A program made the position numbers and the translations under genes. From positions 87,473 to 151,472 of the forward strand of contig CANGHK010000005.1 of the NCBI GenBank assembly GCA_947453625.1: DNA of 64,000 nt, given 5' to 3'. Shown piece by piece: positions 29,973 through 35,441 of the stretch. The DNA comes from Burkholderiales bacterium (lineage in GTDB: Bacteria; Pseudomonadota; Gammaproteobacteria; Burkholderiales; Burkholderiaceae_C). The notes beneath the pieces were generated by a model. The model was not told where the DNA came from. It saw only the letters and a list, made by a program, of their open reading frames with translations, and did no database searches. How positions within the stretch are numbered: position 1 is the stretch's first letter; every line of letters starts with the position of its first letter.

Positions 29973-31409
29973 ATGAACCCCTTGCCCGATGGCCTGATCG
30001 TCGTCGCCAAAGCCGAATGCCCGACCTGCACCCTGGTCGAGCCGCTGCTGCGCGAGCTGGCGCAGGGCGGATTGCCGTTGACGGTCTATGTGCAGGACGA
30101 CCCGGCCTATGGCGCCGGCCTGCCCGGGCAGGTGCTCGACGCCACGCTGGAACAGTCGTTCCGCCTCGGCATCGAGATCGTGCCGACGCTGATACGCGTC
30201 GTCGCGGGCCGCGAGGTGGCGCGCACCTATGGCTGGCACCGCGGCGACTGGCAGCAGGTCAGCGGCCTGCCCGGCCTGGGTGCGGCGCTGCCCGAGCTGC
30301 GCCCCGGCTGCGGCTCCAAGACGCTGGAGCCCGGCATCGCCGAGGACTTGATCGTGCGCTTCGGCGACACCGGCCTGAGCGCCCGCCAGGTGGCGCTGGG
30401 TGACGCCGAGGACGCGATCGAAGCCTGTTTCGACCGCGGCTGGACCGACGGCCTGCCGGTGGTTCCGCCCACGCCGGCCCGCGTGCTGCGCATGCTGCAG
30501 GGCACGACGCGCGCCCCCGGCGAGGTGCTGGGCATGGTGCCGCCCGACTTGTCGCCCTGCACGGTGGAGAAGGTGGCGATCAACGCGGTGATGGCCGGCT
30601 GCAAGCCCGAATACCTGCCGGTCGTGCTGGCGGCGGTGGAGGCCGCGCTGATCGACGAGTTCGGCATGCATGGCATCCTGTGCACGACGATGTTCGCCGG
30701 CCCGCTGGTGATCGTCAACGGCCCGCTGGCTCGCCGGGTGGGCATCAACTCGGGCGTCAACGCGCTGGGCCAGGGCCACCGCGCCAATGCCAGCATAGGC
30801 CGCGCGCTGCAGCTGGTGATACGCAACGTCGGCGGCGGCCGGCCCGGCGAGGTCGACCGCGCCACGCTGGGCACGCCCGGCAAATACACCTTCTGCTTCG
30901 CCGAGGCCGAGGATTCGGTCTGGGAGCCGCTCTCGGTCGAGCGCGGCTTCCCGCGCGAGGCTTCGACCGTCACCTTGTTTGCCGGCGAAGGCGTGCAGGG
31001 CGTGGTCGACCAGAAATCGCGCACGCCCGAGTCGCTGGCGCGCAGCTTCGCGCTCTGCCTGCGCGCGGTCGACCATCCCAAGCTGGCGATGGCCGGCGAC
31101 GCGCTGCTGGTGGTCTCGCCCGACCACTGCCGTGTCTTCATCGAGGCCGGCTGGTCCAAAGCAAGGCTGCTGGCCGAGTTGACTGAACTGCTGTTGCTGC
31201 CGGGCGACGAGATGGTGGTCGGCGCCGGCGGTATCGCCGAGGGCTTGCCGGCCTCGCTGGCCGGCAAGCCCTGCCCCAAGTTCCGCCCCGGCGGCCTGCT
31301 GATCGTTCGTGCCGGCGGCGGCGCCGGCTTGTTTTCGGCCATCATCGCCGGCTGGGCCGCGTCCGGTCCGGTCGGCTCCATCCCTGTCACGAAGGAAATC
31401 ACCGCATGA
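29973..31409 (+). CDS. Two-domain protein: N-terminal thioredoxin-like (CPTC) plus C-terminal domain associated with UGSC selenoproteins
   Basis: MNPLPDGLIVVAKAECPTCTLVEPLLREL; C-terminal 'RGWTDGLPVVPPTPARV'; 4-nt stop/start overlap with the UGSC gene. Confidence 0.75.
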   Translation: MNPLPDGLIVVAKAECPTCTLVEPLLRELAQGGLPLTVYVQDDPAYGAGLPGQVLDATLEQSFRLGIEIVPTLIRVVAGREVARTYGWHRGDWQQVSGLPGLGAALPELRPGCGSKTLEPGIAEDLIVRFGDTGLSARQVALGDAEDAIEACFDRGWTDGLPVVPPTPARVLRMLQGTTRAPGEVLGMVPPDLSPCTVEKVAINAVMAGCKPEYLPVVLAAVEAALIDEFGMHGILCTTMFAGPLVIVNGPLARRVGINSGVNALGQGHRANASIGRALQLVIRNVGGGRPGEVDRATLGTPGKYTFCFAEAEDSVWEPLSVERGFPREASTVTLFAGEGVQGVVDQKSRTPESLARSFALCLRAVDHPKLAMAGDALLVVSPDHCRVFIEAGWSKARLLAELTELLLLPGDEMVVGAGGIAEGLPASLAGKPCPKFRPGGLLIVRAGGGAGLFSAIIAGWAASGPVGSIPVTKEITA

Positions 31410-31960
31410 ATCCCTCACTGGTTCTGCTCGACCCGACCTCGGAGCGATCGCCCGTGGCCCGGGCGCTGGCCGCGCGGCCGGCTTCGCTCGACGGCCTGGC
31501 CGGCATGGCGGTCGCCGTGCTCGACATCTCGAAGGCGCGCGGCAACGTATTCCTCGACCGGCTGGCCGAGTTGCTGAGCGCCCGCGGCCTGCGCGTCAAC
31601 CGCTACCGCAAGCCCACGTTCACCCGGCCCGCGCCGACCGCGCTGCGCCAGCAGATCGCGGCCGAAAACCAGCTCGTCATCGAAGGCCTGGCTGACTGAG
31701 GGTCCTGCACGTCGTGCTGTATGCATGACATCGCGGATCTGGAGTCACGGGGTCTTCCGGGGGTGGGGGTTGCATCGACCGAGTTTGTGCAGGCTGCGGC
31801 CATGCAGGCCAAGTCGCTGGGTTTCGATCCGGCGATGGTCTTCGTCGCCCATCCGATCCAGGACCGCAGCGATGACGAACTGCGGGCGCTGGCCGATGCT
31901 GCCTTGCCCGCCATCCTGCAGCGGCTGGTGGCCGCCGCGCCGCAACCGCCTGCCGCCTGA
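31406..31960 (+). CDS. UGSC family selenoprotein (in-frame UGA = Sec at 31697-31699)
   Basis: Frames 31406-31699 and 31721-31960 are the same phase; joined product '...NQLVIEGLAD-U-GSCTSCCMHDIADLESRGLPGVGVASTEFVQAAAMQAKSLGFDPAMVFVAHPIQDRSDDELRALAD...'; adjacent selA-selB-tRNASec. Confidence 0.9.
31705..31736 (+). promoter_or_regulatory. Candidate bacterial SECIS element
   Basis: Stem CUGC/GCGG, internal loop, 7-bp stem GUCGUGC/GCAUGAC (one G-U), apical loop UGUAU with G at position 2, 18 nt between the UGA and the loop. Confidence 0.65.
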
Positions 31961-31978: not shown

Positions 31979-33421
31979 GTGGCGCTGACGCCCGGGTCCG
32001 TGCCCGATTCAGTGCCCGAGTCGGCACCCAAACGGTCGCGCCTGCCGGCGGTCGACCGGGTGCTGGCCTGGCCTGGGCTGGCCGACAGCCTCGCCGCGCA
32101 GGGCAGGGCGCTGGTGCTGCAGGCGGTGCGGGCCGAGCTGGCCGCGCGGCGGGCCGGCGGCGAAAGCCCTGCCGACGCCGCGCTGCTGGCCGGCATCACG
32201 GCCCGGGTGGCCGCGCTGGCCCAGCCGCATCTGCGCCGGGTCTTCAACCTGACCGGCACGGTGCTGCACACCAACCTGGGCCGGGCGCCGCTGCCGGCGC
32301 AGGCGCTGGCGGCGATCGCCGAGGTGGCTTTGGGCGCGGCCAACCTCGAATACGACCTGGTCGCCGGCCAGCGCGGCGACCGTGATGACGCCGTCGAGGG
32401 CTTGCTGTGCGGCTTGACCGGCGGCGCGGCCGCCACCGTGGTCAACAACACCGCGGCCGCGCTGATGCTGGTGCTGGCCACGCTGGCCGGCCGGCGCGGT
32501 CGGCGCGAGGTGATCGTCTCGCGCGGCGAACTGATCGAGATCGGCGGCGCTTTCCGCCTGCCCGACATCATGCGGGCGGCCGGCTGCACGCTGCGCGAGG
32601 TGGGCACGACCAACCGCACCCACCTGCAAGACCATGCGCAGGCAATCGGCGCGCGCACCGCGATGCTGCTGAAGGTGCACACCAGCAACTTCCGGATCGA
32701 GGGCTTCAGCGCGGCCGCCGACGAGGCCGAGCTCGGCGCGCTGTGCCGCCAGCATGGCCTGCCCTTCGTGATCGACCTGGGCAGCGGCGCGCTGATCGAC
32801 CTGGCGCGGCTGGGCCTGCCGCACGAGCCCACGCCGGCCGAGGCGCTGGCCGCGGGCGCCGACCTGGTGCTGTTCTCGGGCGACAAGCTGCTGGGCGGGC
32901 CGCAGGCCGGCATCGTGGTCGGCCGTGCCGACCTGGTGGCCCAGCTCAAGCAAAACCCGTTCAAGCGCGCGCTGCGCTGCGACAAGCTGACACTGGCGGC
33001 GCTGGAGGCGGTGCTGCGGCTGTACGGCGACCCGGACCGGTTGGTGGCGCAACTGCCCACGCTGCGCCTGCTGGCCCGGCCCGGCGCCGAGATCGCCGCG
33101 CTGGCGCAGCGCCTGGCGCCGCTGCTGGCGGGCGCGCTGGGGGCGCTGGCGCAAGTCGACGTCTGGCCGGTGATGAGCCAGATCGGCAGCGGCGCGATGC
33201 CGGTCGGCCGCCTGCCCAGCCACGCCCTGCGCCTGACGCCGCCCGGCGCCAAGCGCGCTTCGGGCCGGGCGCTGGACGCGCTGGCGGCCAGGCTGCGCGC
33301 GCTGCCGGTGCCGGTGATAGGCCGCATCGCCGACGGCGCGCTGCTGCTCGACCTGCGCTGCCTGGAGGACGAGTCAGGCTTTGCCGCGCTGTTCGCGGGG
33401 CCCGCCGCGGCCGCGCCATGA
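31979..33421 (+). CDS. selA: L-seryl-tRNA(Sec) selenium transferase
   Basis: '[21 protein letters not shown]', '[14 protein letters not shown]', '[18 protein letters not shown]' PLP-lysine motif; GTG start. Confidence 0.96.
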
Positions 33422-35334
33422 TCATCGCCACCGCCGGCCATGTCGACCATGGCAAGACCACGCTGGTGCGGGCGCTGACGGGGGTCGACACCGATCGCCT
33501 GGACGAGGAAAAGCGCCGCGGCATGACCATAGACCTCGGCTTTGCCTACAGCGGTCCGTTGGGTTTCGTCGACGTCCCCGGCCATGAGCGTTTCGTTCGC
33601 AACATGCTGGCCGGGGTGGCCGGCATCGACCTGGCGCTGCTGGTGGTGGCCGCCGACGACGGGCCCATGCCGCAGACGCTGGAGCACCTGGCCATCCTGG
33701 CGCTGCTGGGCGTGCCGAGGCTGGTGGTGGCCCTGAGCAAGATCGACCGCGTGCCGCCCGACCGCGCGGCCGAGGCCGGGCGTGAAGTCGCCGCGCTGCT
33801 GGCCGACGGGCCTTACGCGGGTGCGCCGCTGTTCCCTGTGGCGGCCAGCGTCGGCACCGGCCTGCCGGCGCTGCGCCAGCACCTGGATGCGGCCGCGCAG
33901 GCGCTGGCGGCGCGCCCCGCCGCCGGGCAGTTCAGGATGGCCATAGACCGCAGCTTCACGCTGGCCGGGGCCGGCCGCATCGTCACCGGCGTGGTGCTGG
34001 CGGGCCGGGTGCAGGTGGGCGACGCGGTGCTGCTGTCGCCGGCCGGCGTGCCCGCCCGGGTGCGCGGCCTGCAGGCGCAGAACCAGCCGGCCGAGTCGGC
34101 CCAGGCCGGCCAGCGCTGCGCCTTGAACCTGGCCGGCCCGGAGCTCAAGCGCGCCGAGCCGCAGCGCGGCGACTGGGTGGTCGCCGCGGCCGCGCATGCG
34201 CCCAGCGACCGGCTCGATGTGCAGCTGACCGTGCTGGCCAGTGCACCCGGCCCGCTGCCCCAGCGCAGCGCGCTGCAACTCCACCTGGGCGCGGCGGCGC
34301 TGAACGCCCGGGTGGCCGGGTTGGACCTGTCAGGGGGGGCCGCGCTGGCGCCGGGCAGCGTCGGCCTGGCCCAATTGCTGCTGGACCGGCCGGTGTCCGC
34401 GGTCCATGGCGACCGGTTCATCCTGCGCGACCCCGCGGCCAACCGCACCCTGGCCGGCGGCTGGGTGGTCGACCCCTTCGGCCCGGCGCGCGGCCGGTCG
34501 CGGCCGGTCCGGCTGGCGCAGCTGGCGGCGCTGGCCCGGCCCGACCCGGCGCAGGCACTGGCCGACTTGCTGGCGCAATCGTCCGACGGCGTCGACCTGG
34601 CGCGGTTCGCGCGCGGGCGCAACCTGCGGCCCGACGAGGCCGAGCCGCTGCACCAGGCGCTGGCGCTGCGGCCGGTGGCCGGCGACAGCGGGCCGCTGGG
34701 TCTGGCCGAAGTGCATTGGCAGGACTGGCGCGCGCGCGTGCTGGCGGCGCTGGACCGCTGGCATGCCGAGCAACCCGACAGCCTGGGGCCGCATGCGCCG
34801 GCGCTGCGCCTGGCGCTGGGCTTGACCGCGGGTCAGCCGGCCAGCCAGGCGCCTGCCAGGGCGGTGCTGCAAGCCATGCTGGCCGCGCTGGTCGACGAGG
34901 GATTGCTGGCGCGCGACGGCCTGCGCCACCGTCGCGCGGCGCACCGTGCGGCCCTGGCCGAGGCCGACCGCGCGCTGCTGGACCGGGTGAACGCGCTGCT
35001 GCAACCGGCCGGCCTGCGCCCGCCCATCGTCGGTGAACTGGCCACCCAGCTCGGCCTGCCGCTGCCGCTGCTGGTCGATTTTCTCGGCCGTATGGCCGGC
35101 CGCGGCCTGCTGGTGCGGGTCGCACCCAACCGCTTCTACCTGCCCGAGGGCGTGGCCGCTCTGGTGGCCCAGGCCCTGGCGCTGGCGGCCGAGAGCGACG
35201 ACGGCAGCCTGGACGCCGCCGGCTACCGCGACCGCACCGGCATAGGCCGCAACCTGACGGTGCAGGTGCTCGAATTCCTCGACCGCGAAGGCCTTACCCG
35301 CTTCGACGGTGTGCGGCATCGCCCCGCGTGCTAA
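33418..35334 (+). CDS. selB: Selenocysteine-specific translation elongation factor
   Basis: [60 protein letters not shown]-terminal winged-helix repeats. Confidence 0.96.
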
Positions 35335-35348
35335 GGTGCCGTCGCCCT

Positions 35349-35441
35349 GGAAGGGCAGCGTTTCCCGGTGGAGCGCCCGGCCTTCAAAGCCGGTGAGACG
35401 CGCCCAGCGTGTCGGGTGGGTTCGACTCCCACGCCCTTCCG
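35349..35441 (+). tRNA. selC: tRNA-Sec (anticodon TCA at 35384-35386), CCA encoded at 35442-35444
   Basis: 8-bp acceptor GGAAGGGC/GCCCTTCC, 5-bp T stem GTGGG-TTCGACT-CCCAC, anticodon arm CCGGC-CTTCAAA-GCCGG, 6-bp long variable arm GACGCG/CGTGTC. Confidence 0.97.

Follow-up and report, generated by a model that had tools for sequence, protein, structure and literature searches.

The window, a 64,000-nucleotide stretch of DNA from a Burkholderiales bacterium, carries a selenoprotein gene of the UGSC family. The reading of its in-frame UGA (codon 98) as selenocysteine (Sec) by SelA, SelB, and tRNA-Sec from the same operon, with a downstream hairpin, is strongly supported by the conservation of the UGA, the matches to two family models, the invariant U98-G-S-C101 motif, a hairpin that appears to be under selection, the adjacent Sec machinery, and the presence of selD. 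On balance, we think that UGSC, with its UGA read as Sec, is probably the subunit with the catalytic selenol in a reductase that has two parts, is fed by thioredoxin, and works in the catabolism of organic acids. The family was published in 2008 with no function assigned (PMC2398784). A first-pass annotation, made by a model from the sequence alone, regarded its function as unestablished; this agrees with the literature from 2008 to 2026 (including PMC2398784 and PMC13188914), in which we found no function for it. The constant partner gene, the link to thioredoxin, the likely relationship to PrdB, and the catabolic neighborhoods described here give this function-unknown family a testable enzyme hypothesis. 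As far as our literature search goes, such a concrete model (two-part, thioredoxin-fed, and PrdB-related) would be the first for UGSC. The first-pass annotation made no mention of the selABC operon, the gene for the partner, or the PrdB link. The features of the locus are listed in Table 1.

Table 1. Features of the UGSC locus (positions in the window)
Feature	Position	Strand	Evidence or remarks
Partner gene, 478 aa	29973..31409	+	N-terminal thioredoxin domain and ~350-aa domain ("DG[LM]P..PPT" family); stop overlaps UGSC start (ATGA)
UGSC-family selenoprotein gene	31406..31960	+	184 aa; residue 98 is Sec
In-frame UGA, read as selenocysteine	31697..31699	+	
Putative bacterial SECIS apical hairpin	31711..31729	+	7-bp stem 31711-31717 / 31723-31729, loop 31718-31722
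selA, L-seryl-tRNA(Sec) selenium transferase	31979..33421	+	TIGR00474, E = 4e-162
selB, Sec-specific elongation factor	33418..35334	+	TIGR00475, E = 7e-107
selC, tRNA-Sec, anticodon TCA	35349..35440	+	RF01852, 69.9 bits; ARAGORN

The UGSC gene and its in-frame UGA

Translation with TGA as U showed that the frame opened by the ATG at 31406 meets a TGA at codon 98 and then continues uninterrupted until the TGA stop codon at 31958-31960. The second ORF, which starts at 31721, lies in the same frame. The first-pass annotation had described two ORFs split in this way, together encoding 184 aa with U at position 98, and both its coordinates and its frame were confirmed. It had assigned the product to the UGSC family and proposed a search of the joined sequence against family models. 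The joined product scored 146.9 bits against NF041046 (UGSC family (seleno)protein; E = 4e-43, residues 33 to 174) and 138.2 bits against PF24696 (Pfam UGSC; E = 4e-40, residues 7 to 175), above the curated cutoffs of 125 and 25 bits, respectively, and each match crossed the UGA in one unbroken stretch. The gene is a further member of the published family, which already has NCBI and Pfam models: it shares the near full-length match, the UGSC motif, and the Sec or Cys at the site, and shows no essential difference from the family apart from standing here in one operon with the partner, selA, selB, and selC. The motif, the hairpin, the Sec machinery, and selD likewise agree with the assignment made from the letters alone. 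A sequence search of the PDB with UGSC returned no match, and neither did a search of phage records.

The codon at the Sec site was compared across 100 homologous loci, made up of 80 homologues from the genome collection and 20 matches from related genomes, with some overlap between loci. It was TGA in 99 of them, including all 80 from the genome collection, and TGC in the remaining one (L013); among the 66 distinct sequences downstream of the Sec codon, 65 had TGA. Cys-coding homologues with TGC in the same open frame were found at L013/L140 (one locus) and at L138, and they aligned at the Sec site as the first-pass annotation had suggested checking. The UGSC gene thus shows the traits that together identify a bacterial selenoprotein: an in-frame UGA, a conserved coding sequence to either side of it, and homologues that code for Cys. 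U98-G99-S100-C101 was invariant in an alignment of 38 UGSC members. As counterevidence, the first-pass annotation had named a site with neither Sec nor Cys conserved, or a loss of conservation downstream; what we found was TGA in 99 and TGC in 1 of the 100 loci and a conservation at least as high after the UGA as before it. Mean identity among the homologues was 77% for residues 99 to 171 and 67% for residues 30 to 97, in line with the high protein quality that had been noted beyond the UGA. The GC contents at the three codon positions, 0.74/0.51/0.91 before the UGA and 0.74/0.52/0.78 after it, indicate a coding pattern on both sides.

Mechanical ORF calling splits the frame at the UGA, as it would if this codon were an ordinary stop and the second half a separate gene or a pseudogene. 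The annotators of the Acidovorax sp. T1 plasmid p2-T1 split the gene likewise: it ends there at the UGA under the label "hypothetical protein," and the remainder is unannotated, a truncation of the kind that the first-pass annotation expected from gene callers. An ordinary stop is at odds with the conservation of the UGA and of the sequence flanking it on both sides in 99 of the 100 loci, with the hairpin and its frozen codons and covariation (see below), with the replacement of TGA by TGC in the same open frame of Cys homologues, and with the selABC genes adjoining UGSC. We give this reading next to no chance, and the comparisons made here already refute the second half as a separate gene or pseudogene.

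A hairpin downstream of the UGA

The putative SECIS hairpin lies 12 to 30 nt downstream of the UGA and folds with -19.4 kcal/mol (z = -2.0). Its columns were paired in 97.4% of the cells, compared with 4 to 53% for slid versions, and one compensatory change, from a C-G to a G-C pair, was found in the paralogues with Trp104. Codon choice within the hairpin was nearly frozen, as judged from binomial probabilities that ignore the kinship of the sequences. The Ser codon was almost universally TCG (third-position G in 65 of 66 sequences, against 46% TCG among the TCN serine codons of the partner genes), the Cys codon in the loop was TGT in all 44 sequences with Cys there (25% usage), and the Thr codon ended in G in 57 of 66 (ACG usage, 34%). 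Third positions varied freely in the Gly and Ser codons right after the UGA and in codons beyond the hairpin. Different codons stood in this region of two Cys homologues, L138 and L140 (L140 being the same locus as L013), which had lost the frozen choices. A subfamily with the motif C-U-G-S-C had a hairpin of different sequence at about the same place after the UGA. An Rfam search with the hairpin gave no meaningful match. These patterns suggest that a SECIS-like hairpin shortly after the UGA is under selection, as a putative target of SelB.

Sec machinery and operon organization

The partner gene, UGSC, selA, selB, and selC follow one another directly in this order, and the ATGA overlaps between the partner stop and the UGSC start and between selA and selB suggest that they form one operon. 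selD was found elsewhere in the genome, without an in-frame TGA. selA, selB, selC, and selD are therefore all present, as in a selenoprotein host. Further selenoproteins were sought in this genome among SelD and formate dehydrogenase-like genes, none of which had an in-frame TGA.

Of the 80 genome-collection loci, 56 had selA, selB, or both adjoining UGSC; these were mostly from beta- and gammaproteobacteria, and some of the remaining loci are cut by contig ends. The compact partner-UGSC-selA-selB-selC cassette is kept across both groups, with the Sec machinery directly adjoining one selenoprotein. Within the same genus, all 11 genomes with UGSC had a clear tRNA-Sec (>60 bits, with the next-best, presumably ordinary, tRNAs at about 46 to 52 bits in the same search), compared with 2 of the 10 without it. 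The two UGSC-less genomes with a clear tRNA-Sec, G010 and G014, one of which is a 70% complete assembly, probably either encode some other selenoprotein or lack a contig. At five loci (L022, L023, L030, L059, and L065), selB came directly after UGSC and no selA was found in the locus; it must be elsewhere or absent.

The partner protein

The partner gene adjoined UGSC in 99 of the 100 loci, the sole exception being a contig that begins inside UGSC. For 27 further UGSC genes in three genomes, it lay no more than 1.5 kb away in 26 cases and about 3.5 kb away in the other. Fusions of UGSC and the partner, in one frame downstream of the UGA, occurred at L118, L121, L126, and L196 (Acidovorax p2-T1). 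This constant association and the fusions argue that the two proteins are parts of one enzyme. The fusion on p2-T1 (L196, 8640-11135), with its in-frame UGA, is carried by a conjugative IncP plasmid and lies near IS1071.

The N-terminal ~95 residues of the partner form a thioredoxin domain with the motif C16-P-T-C19, in which C16 and C19 are invariant. This region was similar to thioredoxin PDB chains (E = 0.0015), and thioredoxin was also recovered in the fold search. It resembles thioredoxin over this length and in its CPTC motif and differs in being fused to a large uncharacterized domain. The thioredoxin domain is missing from many paralogous partners. In an Arthrobacter operon, trxB-trxA-partner-UGSC(Cys), thioredoxin and its reductase are encoded as separate genes. 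Together, the thioredoxin domain of the partner and the Arthrobacter operon point to an enzyme fed by thioredoxin. The Arthrobacter UGSC, in its Cys form (L200, 8998-9813), has a C-terminal extension that resembles a NifU-like domain by eye.

The ~350-aa domain matched no family in Pfam or NCBIfam. Among 28 partners, mostly of paralogue loci, D159-G160-P162, P165-P166-T167, C210, G250-P251, R277, N285, C308, and E311 were nearly invariant. A fusion of UGSC to an uncharacterized domain with a conserved Cys, UGSC/Unknown_1, was reported from the Global Ocean Sampling selenoproteome (PMC2398784). The fusions found here are of the same kind, and the large domain of the partner is probably the Unknown_1 domain, to which we liken it by description rather than by alignment. 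A class I fumarase-like Fe-S enzyme was rejected: Foldseek gave an E value of 3e-4 but a TM score of 0.22, hhalign gave a probability of 0.1%, and just C210 and C308 are near-invariant, whereas three cluster cysteines are needed. A PrdA-type pyruvoyl proprotein was also rejected (profile against PrdA, 0.2%). For glycine reductase, the profile compared was that of a component B subunit as annotated in prd clusters, and it gave 0.1%. Since profile comparison detected no relationship of the partner to PrdA, PrdD, or the reductase component B subunit, the pyruvoyl activation of proline and glycine reductases cannot be assumed for it.

Predicted fold and probable relationship to PrdB

In the AF2 model of UGSC (mean pLDDT, 85), helices alternate with strands, of which there are five, and the model matches structures of the flavodoxin type with TM scores of 0.4 to 0.5. 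A thioredoxin-like fold and a redox function were assumed in 2008 (PMC2398784); the predicted five-stranded Rossmann/flavodoxin-like fold argues against a fold of that kind.

hhalign aligned UGSC to PrdB, which is the Sec-containing subunit of D-proline reductase, with a probability of 85% (E = 6e-6), and to PrdB plus GrdB-like members with a probability of 67% (E = 5e-5), Sec falling on Sec. With the CGxC columns masked, the probability dropped to 12% and the same alignment was recovered. Probabilities did not exceed 1% with reversed or unrelated profiles, and none of 60 column shuffles scored above 20.4, compared with 38.6 for the real alignment. The alignments are shallow (Neff of about 2 to 4). 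Because few sequences were obtained when GrdB was sought in the class, plasmid records served as the source of PrdB and GrdB-like proteins. The motif and its spacing are also common by eye to PrdB ("...TAGUGTCHRTAVIVQRAIESVGIPTIIIA") and UGSC ("...LADUGSCTSCCMHDIADLESRGLPGVGVA"): in both, UGxC comes after a beta strand at an equal distance from the following E..G[IL]P. PrdB is homologous to GrdB, which carries UxxCxxC (PMC13188914); the main UGSC clade has this same U-x-x-C-x-x-C motif, and thioredoxin is linked to the UGSC pair. In many UGSC paralogues, Cys104 is replaced by Trp.

The profile probabilities, the shuffle and reversed controls, and the shared UxxCxxC pattern make a common ancestry of UGSC and PrdB likely but do not prove it. 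This link rests on profile comparison because the UGSC product gave no match to the PrdB/GrdB models of NCBIfam and Pfam (TIGR04483/PF07355). We do not claim membership in the PrdB/GrdB family, from which UGSC differs in this respect as well as in its length (184 aa versus about 240 aa), its partner unrelated to PrdA, and its hosts. The latter are mostly not anaerobic amino acid fermenters and seem for the most part to be aerobic proteobacteria; the proline and glycine reductases, by contrast, function in anaerobic fermentation.

Paralogues, gene neighborhoods, and proposed function

Another genome of the same order, G041, contains 19 UGSC genes, each with one in-frame TGA, and a clear tRNA-Sec (75 bits). 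This is an unusually large expansion of a single selenoprotein family, and nearly all of the copies adjoin a partner gene. The expansion loci are L116-L132, L170, L172, L174, L176, L178, L180, and L182-L194, some of which belong to G048. TctC-type organic-acid receptors were the commonest neighbors of the paralogues (23 of 91 neighboring ORFs), and acyl-CoA dehydrogenases, CoA transferases, lyases, and TPP enzymes were also found. Cys-form UGSC occurs in haloarchaea and Actinobacteria, and on haloarchaeal plasmids it is adjoined by TctC or TAXI receptors, CoA transferases, and lyases. The TctC and CoA-enzyme neighbors suggest that the paralogues act in the catabolism of organic acids. The cassette in the window has neither a TctC nor a CoA-enzyme gene directly adjacent to it, and for its own clade we infer the same role.

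Thiol-redox enzymes are common among Sec proteins with a UxxC motif, and a peroxide- or disulfide-reducing, peroxiredoxin-like antioxidant system would suit the thioredoxin domain of the partner and the thioredoxin-like fold and redox function assumed in 2008 (PMC2398784). We consider such a system unlikely in place of a catabolic reductase. The predicted fold is Rossmann/flavodoxin-like rather than thioredoxin-like, the large and highly conserved second domain of the partner is always there, and the expansion to 19 copies in a single genome, where the catabolic neighbors vary, fits substrate diversity better than peroxide defense. Even less probable, in our view, is a role in metal or metalloid handling, such as the binding or detoxification of Hg, As, or Se compounds with Sec as a ligand. 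The conserved U/C-x-x-C(-x-x-C) motif would be in keeping with it, and other prokaryotic selenoproteins are tied to metal detoxification (PMC13188914). No metal-resistance genes stood out in the UGSC neighborhoods inspected, where the neighbors were genes for transport and organic-acid metabolism.

In the thioredoxin-fed reductase that we favor, the U-x-x-C pair of UGSC would sit at the N terminus of the helix after strand 3, much as the motif does in PrdB, its probable distant relative. A small organic acid, bound and activated by the large domain of the partner, would be attacked by Sec98; Cys101 would then resolve the Se intermediate, giving an Se-S bond. Sec98 would be rereduced by the thioredoxin domain of the partner (C16/C19) or, in other operons, by a separate Trx/TrxR pair. 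More tentatively, UGSC and its partner may represent a large uncharacterized class of thioredoxin-fed selenoenzyme reductases, remote kin of the proline and glycine reductases, that act on imported organic acids in bacteria not fermenting amino acids anaerobically, and the lineage-specific expansion to 19 copies may reflect substrate diversification. Six of the UGSC proteins (L177, L181, L188, L190, L192, and L194) are divergent and lack the HD after the motif; several of them have C-U-G-S-C, and the other hairpin sequence, at a similar spacing from the UGA, is common to several.
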